Below, piece by piece: positions 7,171 through 25,627 of a stretch of DNA of 64,000 bases. The stretch spans positions 1-64,000 of the forward strand of contig JABWCP010000004.1 of assembly GCA_013360215.1 (NCBI GenBank), given 5' to 3'. The stretch is from a bacterium. GTDB taxonomy: Bacteria > CLD3 > SB21. The notes under the pieces are model-generated. The model had not been told where the DNA came from. It searched no databases and worked only from the letters and a program-made list of their open reading frames with translations. The first letter of the stretch is position 1; every line of letters begins with the position of its first letter. Both the position numbers and the translations under genes were made by a program.

Positions 7171-8814
7171 TCAGGTCAAGTATGGACTCGTTGGCACGAA
7201 GCGTCTTCGCGTCTTCGCGTCTTCGCGCTGTGCATAGATTTTGGAATTGACCGTATTCTGAATGGGATTCTTGTCGCAGGAATCTATTTCTTGCGCCTCA
7301 ATCACCGTGACCGGGAAATATCCGCCGTCCACATTGTATGTACCGAGTTTGACCGATAGGCGATCCTTGAAGACATTGTATTTCTTGGAGGTGATGGCCG
7401 CGACTTCGTCCAAGAAGGCTTTCTTGCTTCGCGCTTTAAGCACTTCGTATTCATCGTCAACCTGTTTACGCCTTTGGTTATTGTTATACAGCCGCGTATT
7501 ATATTCCTGCTGAGTTTCGAATTCGCCTCTCGGTGTCTCGTCCACCGCCAGCGTGATAGCTTTTTGTTTCTGCTCGTCGAAATCTATTTCTACTTTCGCC
7601 ATCTTATCCTGAAGTTCACCGATGCGTTCGATGGCTTGAAGAAGCGTTATGCCGTAGCCTATCGTTACCTGTTTTTTCTTTTCTTCTACGATTCGGGCGA
7701 GAAGCTCCTGCTTGCGTTTGTTTTCTTCTATAGTTTTTTTCTGCTCTTCCAACCGTCTTGCCTCTTCGATTTCGGCCAGTTTTTTCTTTTCTTCAAGCGC
7801 AGACATCTGAGCTTTGAGTTCTTGCTGTTTTTTCAGATTTTCCAATCTGGCTTTTTCGTTCTTCTGATCTTCGAGTTGTTTGTTCTGATTTTGCAGTAGG
7901 GCGAGTTCCTTGGCCAGTACGTCTTCGGAATTCACGTTCTGAGCGGCTTTGGTGATGAAGACAAAATCACCCTCGCCGAGTAGGTTGCCGAATTGCGGGT
8001 TTTGTTTATGATTGCGATCGACGGCGTCACTGAAAACCTTCTTTGGAATGTATAGTCCGAGTTCGGAGGCAGTGATGTAGTTTTCAGTCTGTTCGAGTTT
8101 TTCGATCAGGCGACCGGTGAAGACGGAATGGCCTTGAGGCCCGCCATCAAGCACCTGTTCGCTTTTGCCTCCGGCGGTGAGTACCTGTCGGACATTGGAT
8201 GCGGTGATGGACTTGAGGTAGCTGTAGTCCACAGTTTTTTCTTTGACTTCCGCACCGCGCTTGAGCAGAGTGCCGGAATAACAAGCATCCATCACATAAA
8301 AAATATGCTTGGCTTTCAGCGTCTTTGAGATGTTATCGCGCAATTCGACCATGGAGACGTTTTTATACATCGCATCGTCACTGAAAGAGCCATCGGATGG
8401 AATGATGAATCCGACGTCTTCGCCGCCGATGCCGTTTTGGGTATATCCGTGGCCCGCAAAGAATACAAAAATCGCATCGTCCGGACCTGTCTTCGACAGA
8501 TCGCCCTGAAGAGTTTTCAGAATACTCTCTTTCGTGGCGTTTTCATCATAAAGCTCATAGAATTTGTCGAAAACGAATTTGTCTGAAAGAAGTTTCTTTA
8601 TGCCTTTGGCATCACTGACGGCGTTTTTGAGTTGTTGATTGAAATCCAAATTCTTATAGCGGTCAATGCCGATAATGACCGCGTAGGTTTTCTGGTACAG
8701 TGTGAGTTCCTGTGGAATTCCCTTTTGGTCTTTAGCGATAAGTTTTAGACCGCGCGTATCCTGGGCAAAAGCCGCGTCGGACACAAGAAGAATCAGGAGT
8801 AAGAAACGATTCAT
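7171..8814 (-). CDS. Secreted caspase-like (peptidase C14) protein with coiled coil; frame ends in an 8-bp repeat
   Basis: The frame encodes 547 residues. A signal peptide covers residues 1-18 (MNRFLLLILLVSDAAFAQ). The C14 domain spans about 40-285: YAVIIGIDRY, catalytic His122 in FFAGHGYTQ and catalytic Cys178 in YVMDACYSGTL. A charged coiled coil follows (about 295-400, many EEKKKLAEIEEAR-like heptads), then a further domain of about 110 residues. The last 20 or so residues (QREDAKTRRRFVPTSPYLT) are low-complexity and come from three copies of GCGAAGAC plus out-of-frame sequence, so the natural C-terminus has been replaced. The downstream FISUMP frame is the likely lost part. A periplasmic or surface location is inferred from the signal peptide; substrates are unknown. 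Confidence 0.85.
   Translation of the reverse strand: MNRFLLLILLVSDAAFAQDTRGLKLIAKDQKGIPQELTLYQKTYAVIIGIDRYKNLDFNQQLKNAVSDAKGIKKLLSDKFVFDKFYELYDENATKESILKTLQGDLSKTGPDDAIFVFFAGHGYTQNGIGGEDVGFIIPSDGSFSDDAMYKNVSMVELRDNISKTLKAKHIFYVMDACYSGTLLKRGAEVKEKTVDYSYLKSITASNVRQVLTAGGKSEQVLDGGPQGHSVFTGRLIEKLEQTENYITASELGLYIPKKVFSDAVDRNHKQNPQFGNLLGEGDFVFITKAAQNVNSEDVLAKELALLQNQNKQLEDQKNEKARLENLKKQQELKAQMSALEEKKKLAEIEEARRLEEQKKTIEENKRKQELLARIVEEKKKQVTIGYGITLLQAIERIGELQDKMAKVEIDFDEQKQKAITLAVDETPRGEFETQQEYNTRLYNNNQRRKQVDDEYEVLKARSKKAFLDEVAAITSKKYNVFKDRLSVKLGTYNVDGGYFPVTVIEAQEIDSCDKNPIQNTVNSKIYAQREDAKTRRRFVPTSPYLT
7201..7226 (-). repeat. 8-bp tandem repeat (GCGAAGAC x3) at the caspase/FISUMP frame break
   Basis: Three perfect copies of GCGAAGAC followed by a partial GC lie inside the coding region, read on the reverse strand. 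Because eight is not a multiple of three, each gain or loss changes the frame. With two copies (or five) the caspase frame reads on as IYAQREDAKTLRANESILD into the FISUMP domain; with the present three copies it stops 28 bases later at 7171-7173. Confidence 0.9.
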
Positions 8815-16439: not shown

Positions 16440-17771
16440 ATGTCGGAAACGATTTTAACGCTTATCATCAGTGTATCACTTTTTGCATTGGTATTTATCC
16501 CTTACCTTTGGTACACCAACAAAAAACGAGCGCGTTTCGAAGCCAAAAAAAGGGAAGCTATCACACTGGGGCATGATAAACCGGTAGCCCAGCATCCCTT
16601 GATCGATCAATCCCGCTGTATCGGTTGTGCGGCCTGTGTGATCGCCTGCCCCGAACATGCACTGGGCATGATTGATGGTTTGGCGGAACTCGTTTACCCG
16701 GCCAAATGTGTCGGCCATGGCATTTGTGCCGAAGCGTGTCCGGTGTCCGGCATTCGTATCGTACTCGATCCGACCAAATCCACCACAGAATTACCTTTGT
16801 TAGATGAATCGTTTCAATCCAATATACCTAATCTTTTTTTGATCGGTGAATTAGGCGGTATGGCGCTTATACGAAACGCCATTTTTCAGGGCCGTTCTGT
16901 GATCGAATATATTACCGAAAACGTACGAAATACCGATTCTTCATCCACATCGTCCGATATTCACGATGTCGTCATCGTAGGTGCCGGTCCTGCAGGACTC
17001 AGTGCAGGACTGACGGCCAAAAAGAACGGATTAGACTATGTGCTTCTCGAAAAAGAAACTCAAGCGGGCGGGGCTATTTTGAGTTATCCGCGTCAAAAAC
17101 TTGTAATGACGACATCGGTGGAAATTCCGCTTTACGGATTACTCAAACAGCGTGAGTTATCCAAAGAAACTCTGCTCTCCATGTGGAATGACATTATCCA
17201 AAAAACCGATTTAGCTGTCCGCTGTGATGAAAAAATAGTGAATGTAAACTGTGAAAATAAAATTTTTACCGTGTACACAGCCGCCGGGCATACATACCGG
17301 TCACGCCACGTTGTCTTGGCGCTCGGTCGCCGAGGTACGCCCAAAAAACTACAAATTCCCGGAGAAGATTTGCCAAAAGTGGCATACCAACTTCTTGAAA
17401 CCGTACGCTACAAACATAGCCGTTCACTGGTCGTGGGGGCAGGCGACAGCGCGATCGAAGCCGCACTTGCTTTATCCAAACAAACCGGGGCCGAAGTCAC
17501 TTTGATCAATCGCGGTGGAGATTTTTATCGTGCCAAACCTAAAAATCAAGATCGTATCCGTGACGCGGAACGGGATCAGAAAATAAAAATTTATTACCAA
17601 TCTCATGTTTTACAAATTGATCCGACGTCGGTACTTATTCAGGCATCGAACGGGCCGGTATCGGTAGAAAATGATTTTGTATTTATTTTTGCCGGCGGTG
17701 AAATGCCGACTCCGTTCCTTAAACAAATCGGGATCGAATTCATTCAAAAATCCAAGGTGATCGCAGCATGA
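16440..17771 (+). CDS. Membrane-anchored ferredoxin-flavin NAD(P)H oxidoreductase (first gene of cytochrome operon)
   Basis: This 443-residue protein has an N-terminal transmembrane helix (about 5-24), then a two-cluster ferredoxin domain (about 50-115): CIGCAACVIACPEHA is a standard 4Fe-4S site, while CVGHGICAEACPVSG has His in place of the second Cys. The segment LFLIGELGGMALIRNAIFQG links to a thioredoxin-reductase-like flavoprotein domain (about 175-435) with FAD motif VVIVGAGPAGLSAG and NAD(P) motif LVVGAGDSAIEAA. The CxxC of thioredoxin reductases is absent, so it is more like YpdA-type oxidoreductases. It could pass electrons from NAD(P)H through FAD and Fe-S to the membrane proteins encoded next. 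Its last codons overlap the next start by 4 nt. Confidence 0.88.
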   Translation: MSETILTLIISVSLFALVFIPYLWYTNKKRARFEAKKREAITLGHDKPVAQHPLIDQSRCIGCAACVIACPEHALGMIDGLAELVYPAKCVGHGICAEACPVSGIRIVLDPTKSTTELPLLDESFQSNIPNLFLIGELGGMALIRNAIFQGRSVIEYITENVRNTDSSSTSSDIHDVVIVGAGPAGLSAGLTAKKNGLDYVLLEKETQAGGAILSYPRQKLVMTTSVEIPLYGLLKQRELSKETLLSMWNDIIQKTDLAVRCDEKIVNVNCENKIFTVYTAAGHTYRSRHVVLALGRRGTPKKLQIPGEDLPKVAYQLLETVRYKHSRSLVVGAGDSAIEAALALSKQTGAEVTLINRGGDFYRAKPKNQDRIRDAERDQKIKIYYQSHVLQIDPTSVLIQASNGPVSVENDFVFIFAGGEMPTPFLKQIGIEFIQKSKVIAA

Positions 17772-18646
17772 ATAAACGAATGCATCGCTGGTACATCCTT
17801 TCGATGACAGTTGCAGGATTCATCGTTGTTTTCAGTATCGGAATTTACGGCTGGGATTATTACGGCACACCGCTTCCTTTGCGACCCGATCATGCACAAC
17901 ACGGATTATTAAGCCCTACCGGTTTTTGGGGCCACGGGATGGGTTTCATCGGTGCATTCCTTATGACATTCGGCGTACTATTGTATTCCTTACGAAAACG
18001 AGCCCGATGGATGGCTGCTGTCGGGCAGATCAAACACATACTTGAACTGCATATTTTTTTGTGCCTTCTCGGACCTGCATTGATCGTGTTTCATTCCGCA
18101 TTCAAGTTTGGTGGTATTATCGGAGTAAGTTTTTGGTGTATGGTGATCGTCGTCGCAAGCGGGGTTATCGGTCGCTATCTATATCTTCAAATTCCAAAAA
18201 CCATTACAGGTCGGGAAATCACACCAATCGAATTGGAAAAGCAAATCACCACACTGCGTGATCGCTTGCAGAAAGATGACGGCATAGAAGAAGATCTTTT
18301 ACAGCGTTTAGACGCGCTTTCCGCCGCATTTACAAAAACCTCGCGACTCTCGATCATTCGTGCTTTTCCGGCAATGATGATACAAAACATACGTCACGAT
18401 GCGCGGGTTCGCACCCTACTTCAGGAGTTTGAAAAAAACCGTAACCCGCTTTCGTCAGACGCCCATACACGACTGACCTTGAAAGCGCATCTGCAACGCC
18501 AATTGGCCAATCTCACGCTTACACAAAAAATGTTTCGGTACTGGCACATGTTTCACCTTCCGTTTGCCGTAGTCATGTTCATCATCATGATAGCTCATAT
18601 AGTGACGGCTTTTTTATTCGGCTACGGATGGATTTTTACGTCATGA
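17768..18646 (+). CDS. Histidine-rich four-helix membrane protein, possible cytochrome b
   Basis: This 292-residue membrane protein starts at an ATGA overlap with the oxidoreductase gene. It has about five hydrophobic helices: one near the N-terminus, one around 60-78, one with HILELHIFLCLLGPALIVFH, one with VSFWCMVIVVASGVIGRYLY, and a last with WHMFHLPFAVVMFIIMIAHI. Paired histidines in helices (H-x3-H, H...H across helices) are what b-type heme ligands look like, as in ferric reductase-like or NarI/DmsC-like subunits. A soluble helical insert (about 145-250) lies between. It is probably the quinone or heme b relay between the flavoprotein and the periplasmic cytochromes; no exact family was recognised. 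Confidence 0.75.
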   Translation: MNKRMHRWYILSMTVAGFIVVFSIGIYGWDYYGTPLPLRPDHAQHGLLSPTGFWGHGMGFIGAFLMTFGVLLYSLRKRARWMAAVGQIKHILELHIFLCLLGPALIVFHSAFKFGGIIGVSFWCMVIVVASGVIGRYLYLQIPKTITGREITPIELEKQITTLRDRLQKDDGIEEDLLQRLDALSAAFTKTSRLSIIRAFPAMMIQNIRHDARVRTLLQEFEKNRNPLSSDAHTRLTLKAHLQRQLANLTLTQKMFRYWHMFHLPFAVVMFIIMIAHIVTAFLFGYGWIFTS

Positions 18647-18653
18647 GGCGACT

Positions 18654-19226
18654 ATGAATAGTAACGTACATTATTTGCTATGGTTTGTCGCTCTTTTCAC
18701 ATCTCTGATCCTGAGCGCCGTCGCCTTAGACGGATTATTGCATTACCTGAATATGGCGTGGGTAGGACGCTATTTGGGAATCATCGGAACTGTGACTTTA
18801 TTGATTTCCTTTTTGTATAGCGCACGAAAACGAAAATTGGTTAGCCGTGGCAATATGCCGTCATGGCTGCGCTCACATGAATACCTTGCGTGGTGCGGAA
18901 CCATGATGATTCTCGTGCATGGCGGTATTCACTTTAATGCATGGCTACCCTGGTATGCATTGATCGCGATGGTGATCGCTGCTGCAAGCGGACTTATCGG
19001 GAAGCTTCTCATGCGACGGTCACAAGATTTACTGACGGAAAAAACAAAAGATTTACGGCAAATCGGTTTGTCCGATACTGAAATTCGTGAGCGAATTTAC
19101 TGGGATGCATTGACTTTTAGTCTTATGCGTAGATGGCGCTCGGTTCATATACCGGTTACACTTATGTTTGCTATACTTTCAATTTATCACATTATAGCCA
19201 TTCTGATATTTTGGTCATGGCGATGA
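18654..19226 (+). CDS. Second histidine-rich membrane protein, related to its neighbour
   Basis: This 190-residue protein has about four membrane helices and the same plan as the preceding one: a helix pair, then RSHEYLAWCGTMMILVHGGI, a helix ending SGLIGKLLMRR, a charged linker and a final helix with WRSVHIPVTLMFAILSIYHI. Conserved histidines sit in equivalent places (H in helix 3, two H in the last helix), so the two may pair as a heterodimer around b hemes. The start follows the previous stop by 7 nt, with GAGGCGA as a likely ribosome site. Its stop overlaps the next gene. Confidence 0.72.
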   Translation: MNSNVHYLLWFVALFTSLILSAVALDGLLHYLNMAWVGRYLGIIGTVTLLISFLYSARKRKLVSRGNMPSWLRSHEYLAWCGTMMILVHGGIHFNAWLPWYALIAMVIAAASGLIGKLLMRRSQDLLTEKTKDLRQIGLSDTEIRERIYWDALTFSLMRRWRSVHIPVTLMFAILSIYHIIAILIFWSWR

Positions 19227-20095
19227 AATCAATTTTATTCTTCAGTATTACAGCTGCCGCGGTTGTTTTTATGTTTCTATTATTAAAGGTTCCTCACAGT
19301 ATGATGAATCCCGGCGAACTTACGGAAGCCCATGCCAAACAAGAACACGAATGTTTTTCATGCCATATCCCGTTTCGCGGGGTTTCAGCCGACAAATGTA
19401 TGAGTTGTCATCGCCTTGACCATATCGGTGTGGATTCGCTCAGCTCCGTTTCCTCCATTCTCAAAAAAACCGCTTTCCATGATAAGCTTCAAAAAAATCA
19501 ATGCATTGATTGTCATACCGACCATCAGGGGCGTACTTCTACCAAACCGCGATTTGATCATGCCTTGCTGACGTCCGAAATGGTCGGACAATGCCGAACC
19601 TGCCATGCTTCACCAAATTCACCCATGCACTTGGATTCCACACGAGCTTGTTCCCAATGTCATGTCACGACGCTCTGGAGTCAGGTACACTTTGCACATG
19701 AAAAATTGAACGGAACAACACGAGAAGCTTGTACACCATGCCACTTAAAACCGAACACCTCGCTGCATCAATCTTTTTCGAATGATTGCGGGACGTGCCA
19801 CACCGTCAATGCGTGGACTCCGGCCACATTTGCTCATGAATCGTATTTTAGATTGGACGGCGATCACCAAAGCCCCTGCGTAATATGCCATGTGCAAGAT
19901 AATTTCCAGACCTATACCTGCTATGGTTGTCATGAGCACTCAAAAGAAAAGATTGCTCGCGAGCATCAGAAGGAAGGTATTCGTGATTTTCAGAAATGCG
20001 TTCAATGTCATCGCAGCGCCAATAAACATGACATAGAGAATAAGTCCTCTAACGACAAAAACGCACGTGGAGAGAAAGATCATGATGATGATTAG
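19217..20095 (+). CDS. Decaheme c-type cytochrome, membrane-anchored
   Basis: The ATG at 19217 overlaps the end of the previous gene and is followed by one hydrophobic segment (ILFFSITAAAVVFMFLLL), so the product (292 residues) is anchored to the inner membrane or cleaved. It has 10 CxxCH heme-binding motifs: CFSCH, CMSCH, CIDCH, CRTCH, CSQCH, CTPCH, CGTCH, CVICH, CYGCH, CVQCH. Elements of the form F-x-H ... G-x-H ... CxxCH supply likely distal histidines. The protein ends in an acidic tail (EKDHDDD). It should accept electrons from the membrane proteins and move them into the periplasm. An upstream in-frame ATG at 19133 would lie inside the previous gene and is less likely. Confidence 0.88.
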   Translation: MAMKSILFFSITAAAVVFMFLLLKVPHSMMNPGELTEAHAKQEHECFSCHIPFRGVSADKCMSCHRLDHIGVDSLSSVSSILKKTAFHDKLQKNQCIDCHTDHQGRTSTKPRFDHALLTSEMVGQCRTCHASPNSPMHLDSTRACSQCHVTTLWSQVHFAHEKLNGTTREACTPCHLKPNTSLHQSFSNDCGTCHTVNAWTPATFAHESYFRLDGDHQSPCVICHVQDNFQTYTCYGCHEHSKEKIAREHQKEGIRDFQKCVQCHRSANKHDIENKSSNDKNARGEKDHDDD

Positions 20096-20730
20096 TGCAA
20101 ATAAGTTTTCGGCTCGACCCGATCAAAAATAAAATCGAATATCAGATGATACATCATTCAAAACAACTTTGGGTCCTTATCGCCGGACTGGGGTTACTGG
20201 GTATAGCGCTATGGCAAACCAACGAAGCGTCAGACACCATACCGCCTGGAGTATCGCCATCTGCATCATCATTCTCGTGGCAAAATACTCCTCAAAACTC
20301 ACAGGTGAATGTAGAATTCACAAACGACGTTCAAGAACTCAACCGCTACTTGAATCGTCATCCTGACGATACCGAACATTGGATTCAGTTGGGTAATTTA
20401 CTGTTTGATAACGGTAATTTTGCAGATGCCGTAAAACCATACACGGAAGCCTTGCGTTTACAACCTGAAAACCCCGACGTCCGAACCGACCTCGGCGTGT
20501 GTTTATTTAATACCGGCATGAATGATGAAGCCATTCTGCAGTTTGAACGTGCTTTACAATATGCCCCCGACCACATCACGGCGACATTCAATCTGGGAAT
20601 AGTGCACGCGCGCATGGGGCGCACTCAGTCCGCTGTGCAATACTGGAGAAAGACAATACGCTTAGGTCCGGATACCGATATGGGAAAAAAAGCAACGCGT
20701 GCCCTGACCGATGCGGGATATAAACCATAA
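20095..20730 (+). CDS. Membrane-anchored TPR protein of the cytochrome operon
   Basis: The frame opens with a GTG at 20095 that overlaps the previous stop (TAGTG); an internal ATG at 20146 is an equally good start. One membrane anchor (LWVLIAGLGLLGIALWQ) is followed by a linker and at least three tetratricopeptide repeats (about residues 90-200): WIQLGNLLFDNGNFADAVKP, VRTDLGVCLFNTGMNDEAIL, TATFNLGIVHARMGRTQSAV. TPR proteins of this shape (CcmH/NrfG-like) help in cytochrome c maturation or act as assembly scaffolds, which fits the position between cytochrome genes. That role is inference. Confidence 0.8.
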   Translation: MQISFRLDPIKNKIEYQMIHHSKQLWVLIAGLGLLGIALWQTNEASDTIPPGVSPSASSFSWQNTPQNSQVNVEFTNDVQELNRYLNRHPDDTEHWIQLGNLLFDNGNFADAVKPYTEALRLQPENPDVRTDLGVCLFNTGMNDEAILQFERALQYAPDHITATFNLGIVHARMGRTQSAVQYWRKTIRLGPDTDMGKKATRALTDAGYKP

Positions 20731-20732
20731 AC

Positions 20733-22496
20733 ATGAAACACTTTCTACATACTATATTATCGGTGATGACGGCGTGGTCGCTTCACGCACAGTTTTCTCC
20801 GGGTGATTTGGCTTCGTCGCATAAACAACTCGAAGGCATTCAGCAATGTACGCAATGCCACGACCTCGGCAAAAAAATAGACGACGCACGATGTCTTGAT
20901 TGCCATACCTTGATAAAAACCCGCATCGCAAACAATAAAGGTTTTCACGGTTCGACTGAAACCAAAAACAAAGCCTGCATCGAATGCCATCATGACCACC
21001 TCGGACGAGACTATGCGATGATCCAATGGAAACCATCCCGAGAGAAATTTGACCATAAACAAACCGGATATATCCTCGAAGGAAAACATCAAACGACCCA
21101 ATGTGAAGTTTGCCACAAAGAGGCCTTCATCAAAGATAATGCGGTGCGCGCACGAACCGGCGACGGGTTACTGCTCAACAAAACCTTTTTGGGTTTATCG
21201 CAAGATTGCCGTTCATGCCACTTTGACGAACACCGTGATCAGTTTGACCAATGTTTGAATTGCCACGATTTTAATGATTGGAAAAAATCTTCAGACAAAA
21301 TTTTTGACCACAACAAATCAAAATATCCGCTCACGGGATTGCACACCAAAGTATCCTGTAAAAAATGCCACACTTCTGTTGCCGACCCGCGTCAAAAAGC
21401 CGATCATAAAACAGACGAAACCTACTTCAAATACCGGCCGCTTCAGTTTGCCAATTGTACACCATGCCATGCCGATCCGCATCAAAACCGATTCGGCCAA
21501 GATTGTCAAAAATGCCATTTGACGGTTTCGTGGAAACAAATAAAAAACGCCTTATTTGATCACCGGCAAACGCGTTATCCTCTGGAAGGCCTACACATCA
21601 CAGTGCGCTGCGAAAAATGCCATCAACCGGATACAAAAAAAGCCGCCGTCTATAAAAATATGAATTTTTCTAACTGTACCGATTGCCATACTGACGCGCA
21701 TGCCGGTCAATTAACTCAGCGATCCGATCAAGGCCGTTGCGAAACCTGCCATGATGTCAACGGTTTCCGTCCGTCGCGTTTTACGATCAGCATGCATGCA
21801 ACCGAGAGTTCCTATCCGCTTATCGGCGCTCATGAAAAAACAGATTGTAATAAATGCCATATCAAAGCCAATGCGTCTGAATTTTTACGTCGAACCGGTA
21901 TCCGACCTCGCGTTGACAGCGCGCATGTCATCCTGAAATTCAAAGAAAAAACATGCCAATCGTGCCATATAGATATTCATCGCGGGCAATTTGCAGATAA
22001 ACTAAAAAGTAATGATTGCGACATCTGCCACAAAACCACAACATGGAAAGACATTGTTTTTGATCATCAAAAAAATTCTGATTTCAAATTAATAGGAAAA
22101 CACGAAAAAACACCGTGTGAAAAATGCCATCCTTTGGTAGATGTGGACACGGAGATAAAACGCACATTGTACAAACCGATACCGACATACTGCGAGCACT
22201 GCCACAACGATATTCATGAAGGTCAGTTTGCCGAATACAAAACCATGACGCCTTCGCATCCGAAAACCGATTGCGCTAAGTGCCATTCTAACGACGCTTT
22301 CAAGCCGGCAATTTTTGATCACGAAAAGCAGTCTCAGTTTCCGCTAACCGGCGCTCACATCAAAGTGGAATGCGCCAAATGCCATATTCGTGCACGGATT
22401 ACGTCGGACACACTAAATGTAGTCTACAAACCCATCAGTACCGAGTGCGCGGCATGCCATCCGGATCAACACGAAGGAGTGTTTCAACAACGATGA
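20733..22496 (+). CDS. Secreted 20-heme c-type cytochrome built from repeated modules
   Basis: This 587-residue protein has a signal peptide (about 1-19, SLHAQ) and 20 CxxCH motifs, spread over the whole length. Most of the chain is made of a recurring module of the form FDH-x6-PL-x-G-x-H-x4-C-x2-C-H, seen six times (for example FDHNKSKYPLTGLHTKVSC and FDHEKQSQFPLTGAHIKVEC), alternating with CxxCH-xDxH elements such as CHADPHQNRFG and CHIDIHRGQFA. The extra histidines are candidate sixth ligands. With no membrane segment it would be periplasmic or on the outer membrane, acting as a heme wire. It starts 2 nt after the TPR gene and overlaps the next gene by 4 nt. Confidence 0.9.
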   Translation: MKHFLHTILSVMTAWSLHAQFSPGDLASSHKQLEGIQQCTQCHDLGKKIDDARCLDCHTLIKTRIANNKGFHGSTETKNKACIECHHDHLGRDYAMIQWKPSREKFDHKQTGYILEGKHQTTQCEVCHKEAFIKDNAVRARTGDGLLLNKTFLGLSQDCRSCHFDEHRDQFDQCLNCHDFNDWKKSSDKIFDHNKSKYPLTGLHTKVSCKKCHTSVADPRQKADHKTDETYFKYRPLQFANCTPCHADPHQNRFGQDCQKCHLTVSWKQIKNALFDHRQTRYPLEGLHITVRCEKCHQPDTKKAAVYKNMNFSNCTDCHTDAHAGQLTQRSDQGRCETCHDVNGFRPSRFTISMHATESSYPLIGAHEKTDCNKCHIKANASEFLRRTGIRPRVDSAHVILKFKEKTCQSCHIDIHRGQFADKLKSNDCDICHKTTTWKDIVFDHQKNSDFKLIGKHEKTPCEKCHPLVDVDTEIKRTLYKPIPTYCEHCHNDIHEGQFAEYKTMTPSHPKTDCAKCHSNDAFKPAIFDHEKQSQFPLTGAHIKVECAKCHIRARITSDTLNVVYKPISTECAACHPDQHEGVFQQR

Positions 22497-23248
22497 ACCG
22501 AAGCCTTATCATCGCGGCTGCACTACTCAGTATGGCCGCCTATTTACCGCAACCGGATCCCGAGTATACGGCGTGGACTTACGCACGCCCTGCCGCGGAT
22601 ACACCGTATGTAAAAATACCGCATAAGCCGTTTGACATTCCGTGCGATGCTTGTCACACCACGACGACGTGGAAAACATTAAAATCTAAAATCGAATACG
22701 ACCACACCAAAACAGGGTTTCCGCTTGTCGGCGCCCATCTTCAGACGGCATGCAGCCAATGCCATGGCGGCGGTGTGTTTCGTTCGGCCATTCGCGAATG
22801 TTTCATATGCCATGCCGATCCGCATCAGGCACAACTTGGATTGGAGTGTGAGCGGTGCCACACGGAGTATGCGTGGGCGCCTTCGATTTTTAAACATGAG
22901 GATCAAAATTTATTCATGTTCGGCGCACACAAAGGTCTAGATTGCGCCGGCTGCCATAAAAACCTCATCACGTTTGCAATGCCCAACGTGCAGGAGTGCG
23001 GCGATTGCCATATCCCGCTCGGCGCAACCACCGATCATAATGCGTACAAATCCATCGGCGACTGCATGGCCTGCCATAACATGAACGGCTGGAGTAATTA
23101 TCCGCATGCCGACGAATGGTTTTCTTTGACCGGGCATCATCGCCGAAGCTGCGAGACATGCCACAAGCAGATACCCAACTATACGACCTATACATGCCGG
23201 GACTGTCATCGTTTTGATCATAAAGGGGAAGGGGACGATGATGATTAG
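22493..23248 (+). CDS. Nonaheme c-type cytochrome
   Basis: The start at 22493 overlaps the previous stop (ATGA). The product has 251 residues, a signal peptide (about 1-20, MAAYLPQ) and nine CxxCH motifs: CDACH, CSQCH, CFICH, CERCH, CAGCH, CGDCH, CMACH, CETCH, CRDCH. It uses the same module as the 20-heme protein (YDHTKTGFPLVGAHLQTAC, FKHEDQNLFMFGAHKGLDC), so the two arose from a common unit. Like the decaheme protein it ends in an acidic tail (KGEGDDDD). An open frame extending back to 22370 overlaps the previous gene and is not needed. It probably hands electrons to or across the outer membrane with the barrel protein encoded next. Confidence 0.88.
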   Translation: MNRSLIIAAALLSMAAYLPQPDPEYTAWTYARPAADTPYVKIPHKPFDIPCDACHTTTTWKTLKSKIEYDHTKTGFPLVGAHLQTACSQCHGGGVFRSAIRECFICHADPHQAQLGLECERCHTEYAWAPSIFKHEDQNLFMFGAHKGLDCAGCHKNLITFAMPNVQECGDCHIPLGATTDHNAYKSIGDCMACHNMNGWSNYPHADEWFSLTGHHRRSCETCHKQIPNYTTYTCRDCHRFDHKGEGDDDD

Positions 23249-24539
23249 ATTTTTAAACCGAGTCATCGTTATCATATTAATCGCGTACCTATTTGTAAAA
23301 GACGGCCGTTCGCAATCTCTCACAGGCAACAAAAAGCCTTTTATTGCACGATTTTCTTCCGGATGGAATTATTATTCCCGCGGCGCTTCGCTCAATCCGC
23401 AGCTAAGCGAGTTTACACAGTATGCGATGCTCAATTATCGCACGCTCGATGACAGTAATAGAATTATCTGGCAAATACGTACCGATATTTACCAAAAAGA
23501 CGCCGTAACACAAACTCGTCTGCGAAATCAAAACGAGCCGTTTGATCACCGAACGGTAATTCGTCAAGCCTACGGATCTTATACACTACACGATGGCGAA
23601 GTCAAACTGGGGCGCTTCGTCCCGCTCGGCACCCATACCGACGCTTATCCCATCAATGGTCTCGGCGCCGAAAATACACGTATCACCTCGCGGTGGAGAG
23701 GCTCTGTTTATGGCGGGAAAATTTTTGATGAATACGACAATCGCCCTGAAGGCATCGGCTATAGTACGGGCGGAAGTCTGACGTATGACCAAACCCGGTG
23801 GCAAGCCGGAGCCGGATTGAGCGCTGAACAACTGCGCAATACCCGTCTTACCAAAGCTTATCTTTTCGGTGAATACCGACCTTCCTACACATGGCGCATC
23901 GTATCTAACAATCAATACGTAGTGAACAAAGCGCTGCTCGGCTATTCGCAAAACACCTTGTATTATCGTTTAAACAAAAATCTAAGCACCCGTTTTTTTG
24001 CGGAATACCATGACCGGCGCGCCTACTTTCCTGCGCCAACCGACAGCCTTAGTATGGATCGTTTTTTTAAAACATCGCAGGAATTGATGATCGGCGGTTC
24101 CGTGCGTTACCGGATATTCCAATGGCGCAAAATCGGAATGTTAGAAACAATACCGTCGGTAAAAAAACGACTTGGCCATGACGACCTGACCTACGCGGCG
24201 CTTCAGCTTTTTTATCAAAATTATTTTTTCTGGCGATTCAACCTGAATACCGGATTCAGCTATACGGATAATCAGTGGATTCGCAATTATCGTACCCATA
24301 TTTCGCTTAATCGGGATTTTTTTGCTTCACGTTTGGACGCTTCATTTTCTCTCATCGCTAATACCTATACGTGGAACTCAGCTTCCTCACGCGCCAAACT
24401 TTTGACTACCGTTTCGGCCGACGTCACGTATCGATTTGACGCATCGTGGTATATGTCCGCAGGAATTTATGAAGAAATAGGTAGCGCCACCGATCCCCAT
24501 TCCGGTGTTAATATCCGCATGTTTTATTATCTGCATTGA
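23238..24539 (+). CDS. Outer-membrane beta-barrel protein closing the cytochrome operon
   Basis: This 433-residue protein starts at the first ATG of ATGATG inside the end of the previous gene, with GGGGAAGGGG as a good ribosome site. A signal peptide (about 1-25) is followed by alternating amphipathic strands rich in Tyr, Trp and Arg (SSGWNYYSRGASLNP, WQIRTDIYQK, TWRIVSNNQYVVNK) and ends in an aromatic strand (VNIRMFYYLH), as outer-membrane barrels do. No close named family was recognised. By position it could be the porin sheath for the multiheme proteins, in the manner of MtrB or porin-cytochrome conduits, but it is not an obvious MtrB homologue. Confidence 0.75.
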   Translation: MMIRFLNRVIVIILIAYLFVKDGRSQSLTGNKKPFIARFSSGWNYYSRGASLNPQLSEFTQYAMLNYRTLDDSNRIIWQIRTDIYQKDAVTQTRLRNQNEPFDHRTVIRQAYGSYTLHDGEVKLGRFVPLGTHTDAYPINGLGAENTRITSRWRGSVYGGKIFDEYDNRPEGIGYSTGGSLTYDQTRWQAGAGLSAEQLRNTRLTKAYLFGEYRPSYTWRIVSNNQYVVNKALLGYSQNTLYYRLNKNLSTRFFAEYHDRRAYFPAPTDSLSMDRFFKTSQELMIGGSVRYRIFQWRKIGMLETIPSVKKRLGHDDLTYAALQLFYQNYFFWRFNLNTGFSYTDNQWIRNYRTHISLNRDFFASRLDASFSLIANTYTWNSASSRAKLLTTVSADVTYRFDASWYMSAGIYEEIGSATDPHSGVNIRMFYYLH

Positions 24540-24625
24540 CCCCGTACTTTATAGCATTTTGCTAATACAGCGATAGTTTGGACGTAATAAACGATTTGTA
24601 TTTTTTTCGAAAAGACAAATCTCCT

Positions 24626-25627
24626 ATGGCTGTTGCCGACTTAAACAGGAAAACTATACTCCAAGGCGATATCGCACAATCCGGCATGACGAGCATACTT
24701 TCGCTCATCAAGTTATCGCAAAAATCCGGCACGCTACGTCTCAGGGACGGCGAAAAAAACGCCTCGATCCGGATCGAAAAAAACTATTTCATCGAAGCCT
24801 CCGCACCGGAAGAAATCCTGCTAGGGGAATTTCTTGTGCGCGAAGGTTATCTGACCGAACAAGATTTAGCTAAAACCCTGCCGTTACAAAAGCGCATGCA
24901 CATCCCGTTGGGCCAATTGCTCCAAGGTATGGGATATTTTGGATTGGACGCAAATGCGTTGACCCGGATACTCAATCGGTATTTACGAGAAGTGATTTTT
25001 AGAATTATGAAATGGAATAGAGGCACATTCACTGTGGAAGAAACCGTAAAAAAAGATTTCCCTGTGCGAGAAGAAATCCCGGTGCGCCTTAACATGGATT
25101 TTGTTTTATTGGATACCACCCAACGGCTGGATGAATGGAAACGACTTGCCAGCGGTGTTACGTCGTTGCAATCGGCACTAAAAATCAACCGCCGGGCCAT
25201 CCCTGAAAATGCATCGCTTACATTAAACGCCGATCAACTCACCGTGCTATCGTATGTCAACGGGCGGCGAACGCTTGTGCGCATTCTGGAAAAAATCGGC
25301 CACAACGAAATGTTCTACCTTTCCGTAATAGACGATCTTCTCAAACGCCGCATACTGATCGAACGCCAGGCCGAAGCGATGCGCGTTATCATACCGGGAC
25401 GCATCAAAGCTGATGCTGTAAATCGAAACCGCCAGTTTCCTGGCAAATTTGCGGCTAACCTTTTATATAAAGAAATCGACGGCAAAAAGAACCTTCTTGA
25501 GTTAGCCGATAGTCTTCATTTCGAACTCCCGGATCTATGGGAAAATATTTCCCTGCTGCTCAAAAACGAGGCCGTCGAAATCATCGAAGGCCGCCGAGAG
25601 TTTCACAATCTAAGCGAAGAGATGTAA
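24626..25627 (+). CDS. DUF4388 (PATAN) domain protein
   Basis: From the ATG at 24626 the product has 333 residues; a TTG at 24578 would add 16. Residues about 10-110 match the DUF4388/PATAN domain (GDIAQSGMTSILSLIKLSQK, SGTLRLRDG, FIEASAPEE, LLGEFLVREGYLTEQDLAKT), which is common in signalling and gliding or pilus control proteins of environmental bacteria. The rest (about 200-333) contains two more winged-helix-like segments (VLSYVNGRRTLVRILEKIG; LLYKEIDGKKNLLELADS). No enzyme motif is seen. It lies 86 nt after the cytochrome operon and may be read through from it, or be separate. Confidence 0.75.
   Translation: MAVADLNRKTILQGDIAQSGMTSILSLIKLSQKSGTLRLRDGEKNASIRIEKNYFIEASAPEEILLGEFLVREGYLTEQDLAKTLPLQKRMHIPLGQLLQGMGYFGLDANALTRILNRYLREVIFRIMKWNRGTFTVEETVKKDFPVREEIPVRLNMDFVLLDTTQRLDEWKRLASGVTSLQSALKINRRAIPENASLTLNADQLTVLSYVNGRRTLVRILEKIGHNEMFYLSVIDDLLKRRILIERQAEAMRVIIPGRIKADAVNRNRQFPGKFAANLLYKEIDGKKNLLELADSLHFELPDLWENISLLLKNEAVEIIEGRREFHNLSEEM

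Follow-up and report, generated by a model that had tools for sequence, protein, structure and literature searches.

How electrons could be carried from the cytoplasm to the outside of the cell, and from which donor, is the question raised by eight genes on contig JABWCP010000004.1 of the bacterial assembly GCA_013360215.1 (GTDB lineage Bacteria; CLD3; SB21). The window analysed here comprises positions 1 to 64,000 of this contig, and the eight open reading frames (ORFs) lie at 16440-24539, every one on the + strand in the ORF listing, exactly as an initial sequence-only reading had described. They are designated A to H and encode a ferredoxin-flavoprotein (A), two inner-membrane cytochromes b (B and C), three multihaem cytochromes c (D, F and G), a tetratricopeptide repeat (TPR) protein (E) and a β-barrel (H). 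To our knowledge, all inner-membrane donors of known outer-membrane conduits (CymA, CbcL, ImcH) draw on quinol. The set very likely forms an unbroken chain of iron-sulfur clusters and haems between the cytoplasm and the cell exterior. The reading that we favour, with moderate confidence, is that the operon encodes a trans-envelope electron conduit of the porin-cytochrome class PCC3 that is equipped with a dedicated NAD(P)H module.

The PCC3 class was defined by He et al. (2017) as a porin, an extracellular multihaem cytochrome (MHC) with a median of 34 haems, a periplasmic MHC with a median of 21, and an inner-membrane protein (IMP) of about 300 residues with five transmembrane (TM) helices, an SGxxG motif and two WX3HX13H motifs (PMC5566968). 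Correspondence to PCC3 was judged against this published definition and against PCC3-like loci of Pseudomonadota, obtained through a phylum-level search, which stood in for the Sideroxydans ES-1 and Leptothrix proteins; a class-level search around genome G031 returned only pairs of a small IMP with a 7- to 10-haem cytochrome, and no PCC3. Gene B has the length and the five TM helices of the PCC3 IMP, with haem b ligand pairs H95/H109 on TM3 and H263/H277 on TM5 (two HX13H motifs) and the SGxxG glycines, G132 and G135, on TM4; W259 is present, and the first HX13H motif has no W at -4. Gene F, with 20 haem motifs, corresponds to the periplasmic MHC. Gene H is predicted to be all-β with about 20 strands, and the top Foldseek matches of its low-confidence model, taken as barrel evidence only, are all outer-membrane barrels or porins. 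The 9 haems of gene G fall just under the variable range of 10-85 given for the extracellular cytochrome (PMC5566968). Cytochromes D, F and G share with PCC3 a low number of residues per haem (28-29; 29 in F). The sequence-only reading had found no named conduit to match the set, and this part of it must be given up, since the core fits predicted PCC3 in its IMP, ∼20-haem wire, second, variable MHC and barrel (PMC5566968; PMC10734462; PMC12442390). The idea of a novel conduit was dropped once genes B and F had been matched to PCC3.

Across 61 proteins of several phyla, Pseudomonadota among them, no substitution occurs at the four motif His of gene B or at its G132, G135 and W259. The AlphaFold model of gene B (predicted local distance difference test score, pLDDT, 94.7) contains a long cytoplasmic helical hairpin, and the cytoplasmic loop comprises 117 residues. 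In gene F, all 20 motif columns are in register across Pseudomonadota loci and those of Bacteroidota and Ignavibacteriota (here termed FCB), and each of the 20 haem motifs has an aligned counterpart in a 21-haem protein from a PCC3-like locus in Pseudomonadota. Searches of the PDB with the gene B profile and with gene F gave no useful match. Genes B and C had been described as His-rich, which their composition does not bear out (13 of 292 and 7 of 190 residues, respectively); each holds the four His of two HX13H haem b motifs. Relatives of gene B match Ferric_reduct (ferric reductase, PF01794; 8 of the 61, best 5e-6, with no match for the window protein itself) and, weakly, DUF4405 and Ni_hydr_CYTB of the cytochrome b561 families. 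The likeness to NADPH oxidases and ferric reductases (FRD, PF01794) lies in a two-haem transmembrane cytochrome b with paired HX13H motifs and a cytoplasmic FAD/NAD(P)H module; here, however, a YpdA-like protein with a ferredoxin domain makes up a separate flavin subunit, and the acceptor would be a cytochrome wire rather than O2 or soluble iron.

Gene A, the candidate NAD(P)H module, consists of an N-terminal TM helix, a ferredoxin domain with two Fe-S motifs (CX2CX2CX3CP and CX2HX2CX3CP) and a YpdA/thioredoxin-reductase-like FAD/NAD(P)H domain. It matches Pyr_redox_3 (2e-45) and Fer4 in Pfam and the YpdA structure 7a7b in the PDB (5e-30); its best NCBIfam match, YpdA TIGR04018, reaches 173.5 bits against a cut-off of 339.9. 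Among 90 relatives, the N-terminal TM helix and the CX2HX2CX3C second cluster are each found in 89, and the first cluster has as its second ligand a Ser in 53, a Thr in 20, a Cys in 15 and another residue in 2. The CxxC of thioredoxin reductase is missing from 87 of the 90. Gene A was ruled out as a thioredoxin or bacillithiol reductase, as it has no CxxC disulfide and scores below the YpdA cut-off; from the bacillithiol disulfide reductase YpdA, which it resembles in its FAD and NAD(P)H domain, it differs by the extra TM helix and the two-cluster ferredoxin domain. Because the clusters and the TM helix are conserved and CxxC is absent across these relatives, gene A would appear to be an electron-transfer flavoprotein rather than a disulfide reductase. 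By analogy with thioredoxin reductases, the RGxxFxRAKxKN motif that stands after the second GxGxxA suggests that NADPH is the preferred nucleotide.

The association of gene A with gene B is widespread. Of 145 genomes, 19 have gene B-like matches, and at least 467 relatives were confirmed when named genome contigs were scanned; the best 80 of these loci belong to Bacteroidota and Ignavibacteriota, and include the cultured genera Draconibacterium, Mariniphaga, Maribellus and Yeosuana. The usual order in these two phyla is B-(E)-A-F-cytochrome-barrel, where F carries 20 or 23 haems and the cytochrome at the gene G position mostly 13-82. Where the locus is flanked by at least 9 kb on each side (36 FCB loci, a set biased to near relatives), genes A and F are present in 36/36 and the barrel in 35/36, and the core B-A-F-MHC-barrel recurs in 35/36. 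In a sample of about 140 genomes (about 137 genera), strong gene A matches are found in 13 genomes, all with gene B, and in none of about 126 genomes outside the strong-B set, while 13 of the 14 strong-B genomes carry gene A, G067 being the exception (Fisher p 2e-17, a descriptive value that ignores phylogeny). Four Pseudomonadota loci with gene B and a PCC3-like cytochrome (L190, L191, L194 and L196) likewise have gene A adjacent (514-623 bits). Haem numbers in the cytochromes of the Pseudomonadota gene B loci are 21, 26, 35, 44, 47 or 51; some of these proteins seem to be fusions, and several of the loci also encode a barrel. In L194 a 703-aa ankyrin-repeat protein (L194:11412-13523) is encoded between A and B. 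That genes A, B and F are conserved along with the barrel upholds the earlier suggestion of a coherent set that links NAD(P)H with the outer membrane and has an inner-membrane donor unlike CymA, CbcL and ImcH.

These data also bear on a different donor. In the proposal of He et al., the PCC3 IMP interacts with quinone, because cytochrome-b-like IMPs can be quinone-active (PMC5566968); gene B would then exchange electrons with the menaquinone pool, leaving gene A as a regulator or side entry. The weak matches of gene B relatives to Ni_hydr_CYTB and DUF4405, and the strong-B genome without gene A, are consistent with this. We nevertheless consider it unlikely, given that A adjoins B in nearly every locus, that the two co-occur almost perfectly, and that the 117-aa loop of B gives a cytoplasmic partner a surface on which to dock.

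At the outer-membrane end the operon departs from its relatives. Gene G carries a signal peptide and is, by its position relative to those relatives, probably the terminal (outer-membrane or extracellular) cytochrome. Gene H has no Pfam match; profile-profile comparison relates it to barrels of ∼540 aa (probability 77, E 2e-5, 15% identity), and it represents a short, lineage-specific form of the PCC3-like barrel. In the sample, the short barrel is limited to the host's own family, with a 9-haem gene G adjoining wherever the contig allows. If H were an unrelated solute porin, the cytochromes might form nothing but a periplasmic electron store or reductase. The short, lineage-specific H, the lack of a lipobox in G and the occurrence elsewhere of a C-D type pair without a barrel could be cited for such an arrangement, yet it seems highly improbable, as a barrel follows the last cytochrome in 35/36 of the fully flanked loci and in several Pseudomonadota PCC3-like loci, and as terminal cytochromes of up to 82 haems are hard to explain within the periplasm. 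Those with 69-82 CxxCH motifs were seen in L097 and L102 (contigs of one Saprospiraceae metagenome-assembled genome, MAG), L060, L074 and L118, the upper value being near the largest in PMC5566968 (85). At L034:12794-17246 (L053), a window-type set precedes another 20-haem gene and one of 32 haems, which extend almost to the contig end, as if two conduits shared one A-B module.

The result that would have refuted the earlier reading, all eight genes falling into a characterised complex, did not arise: PCC3 is a genomic prediction (PMC12442390), and genes C, D and E lie, with gene A, outside its published four-gene set. Gene C has two WX3HX13H motifs and an SGxxG, a type like that of gene B. 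C-D pairs recur in L047, L050, L048, L108 and L163: in L047 and L050 without gene B nearby, and in the Flavobacteriales locus L108 immediately upstream of B. The pair is present in the window and in G004 (L048), and is missing from L031 and L032. Pairs of a small IMP and a multihaem cytochrome were termed 'other MHC' by He et al. (2017), and gene C beside the decahaem D resembles these; here the pair sits inside a PCC3-type operon, with D just downstream of C. The TPR domain of gene E resembles CcmH/CycH (NrfG/CcmI), with 50.1 bits to PF23914 against a cut-off of 42, and the protein is a probable cytochrome assembly factor; gene E also adjoins B in Ignavibacteriota operons. The window operon represents a lineage-specific form of PCC3, with a short barrel, a 9-haem terminal cytochrome and an added pair of small cytochrome b and decahaem cytochrome. 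The PCC3 descriptions consulted (PMC5566968, PMC10734462, PMC12442390) place the class in Proteobacteria, whereas here it is found in FCB bacteria, and mention no flavoprotein like gene A.

Other conduits resemble the set less closely. MtrCAB, MtoAB and PioAB also combine a barrel with a periplasmic multihaem cytochrome, but there is no CymA-type donor in the window operon, and MtrB membership was ruled out as PF11854 (MtrB/PioB) has no match in gene H or elsewhere in its own genome. Membership of the DmsE/MtrA decahaem family (TIGR03508) was likewise rejected (D 20.6 and F 29 bits against a cut-off of 192). The OmbB-OmaB-OmcB (Geobacter Pcc) and Ext conduits share a barrel and multihaem cytochromes in one operon; going by their descriptions they are set apart by a pair of octahaem OmaB and dodecahaem OmcB, where the window operon has 20 and 9 haems, and by another inner-membrane part. 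New, unnamed PCC types have been reported in Bacteroidetes (He et al. 2019; PMC6344600), and an anode-enriched Bacteroidetes MAG carries an uncharacterised seven-gene cytochrome-barrel cluster (PMC8258643).

In the proposed PCC3-type conduit, electrons from cytoplasmic NAD(P)H would enter the FAD of gene A; the two Fe-S clusters of A would hand them to the b haem of gene B on the cytoplasmic side (H95-H263), and this haem to the one on the periplasmic side (H109-H277), with no obligatory quinone. The 20-haem wire F would then bridge the periplasm to barrel H, into which a cytochrome may insert, and cytochrome G, from which minerals, humics, an electrode or a partner cell would take up the electrons outside the cell. 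Genes C and D may be a second, small site, made up of a cytochrome b and a decahaem cytochrome, at which electrons enter or leave in the periplasm, and gene E may aid assembly of the haem-dense cytochromes. Because the cytoplasm is negative, outward flow would be electrogenic, at a cost in membrane potential, which fits a role in electron disposal. The same wiring could run inward, if uphill. Gene A would then receive electrons from Fe(II), minerals or a partner cell outside and reduce NADP+ for biosynthesis at the expense of membrane potential. The first PCC3 complexes to be described came from Fe(II) oxidisers (PMC5566968). Internal acceptors for such uptake exist: when the electron-transfer genes of the host genome were sampled family by family, an ACIII-like and caa3-type set (L218), a cbb3-type set (L221; these sets assigned by gene layout and COX1 matches) and NrfHA (L217) were found. 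Uptake nonetheless appears rather improbable, since on general bioenergetic grounds the NADPH potential in a negative cytoplasm lies uphill from most extracellular donors, and among the relatives are isolated strains of Draconibacterium, Mariniphaga and Maribellus, sediment genera that are heterotrophic as far as is known.

Several points weigh against a conduit fed from NAD(P)H. PCC3 itself is a genomic prediction with no functional test (PMC12442390), and the published proposal for its IMP is the quinone role discussed above. The best Foldseek match of gene B in the PDB, Dcytb, is not significant (E 0.22), and gene A might serve a partner other than B. The model of gene H has a pLDDT of just 54.6, the protein is short, and an HMM (hidden Markov model) of the ∼540-aa barrels does not detect it, the link being seen by profile-profile comparison only; gene G lacks a lipobox, so that its placement outside is no more than probable. 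Furthermore, CbcL-like and NapC/ImcH-like proteins encoded elsewhere in the host genome mean that quinol-linked routes exist. The former joins a cytochrome of 13 haems to a b561-type membrane domain, and its gene adjoins that of a NapC/NirT-type 6-haem protein (ImcH-like); the two (G000:C5:218538-222285; L215:6539-10285) probably form a separate quinol-linked route. As the host has these other routes, the PCC3-type operon would add a further one that is linked to NAD(P)H. The same genome also contains genes for cytochrome c assembly.

The packing of the genes agrees with the earlier description (Table 1): with likely start codons chosen gene by gene, the seven junctions range from -11 to +50 nt. 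They measure -4 nt (A/B), +7 nt (B/C), -4 nt (C/D, with D starting at ATG 19223 instead of 19133), about +50 nt (D/E, with ATG 20146; -1 nt with GTG 20095), +2 nt (E/F), -4 nt (F/G, with ATG 22493 instead of 22370) and about -11 nt (G/H, with ATG 23238). The count of 39 haem motifs (10+20+9) was reproduced, and all 39 + strand CxxCH motifs of the window fall within 16440-24539; the three on the - strand lie outside. Promoter- and terminator-like sites around the set do not exceed the level of shuffled sequences, and operon status was therefore deduced from spacing and conservation.

Table 1. Genes of the PCC3-type operon in the window
Gene	Product	Position	Strand	Basis
A	membrane-anchored ferredoxin-flavoprotein	16440..17771	+	Pfam, NCBIfam and PDB matches, motif conservation
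B	PCC3-type inner-membrane dihaem cytochrome b, 292 aa	17768..18646	+	alignments, AlphaFold, PCC3 definition (PMC5566968)
C	small inner-membrane dihaem b protein, 190 aa	18654..19226	+	alignment, motif positions
D	decahaem cytochrome c, N-terminal hydrophobic anchor, gene C partner	19223..20095	+	10 CxxCH; recurring C-D pairs
E	N-terminally anchored TPR protein	20146..20730 (start may be GTG 20095)	+	PF23914
F	20-haem periplasmic cytochrome c, PCC3 periplasmic wire	20733..22496	+	20 CxxCH; motif register
G	9-haem cytochrome c with signal peptide	22493..23248	+	9 CxxCH; position relative to relatives
H	outer-membrane β-barrel with signal peptide	23238..24539	+	strand prediction, Foldseek, remote barrel match

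The 5' neighbour of the operon is a divergent amino-acid permease gene. Immediately 3' (24578-25627) lies a gene for a DUF4388 protein that may be regulatory and weakly matches an MshE-like c-di-GMP motif; it was excluded from the set because it is absent after H in L031. A caspase-like peptidase (C14) gene is found on the - strand at 7171-8814.

A broader proposal is made tentatively, at slightly less than even confidence: in at least three phyla, PCC3 complexes may be driven by NAD(P)H and move electrons out of (or into) the cell without quinone, each being a split, NADPH oxidase-like transmembrane reductase in which an unusual Cys3His / Cys3Ser(Thr) double-cluster ferredoxin is wired straight into an outer-membrane conduit and the quinone pool is bypassed. 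If this is true, the conserved flavoprotein would give the PCC3 class a candidate cytoplasmic electron donor, and its tie to the PCC3 cytochrome b would suggest a quinone-independent, electrogenic route. The range of PCC3 would then extend through Bacteroidota and Ignavibacteriota, including cultured Draconibacterium, Maribellus, Mariniphaga and Yeosuana.

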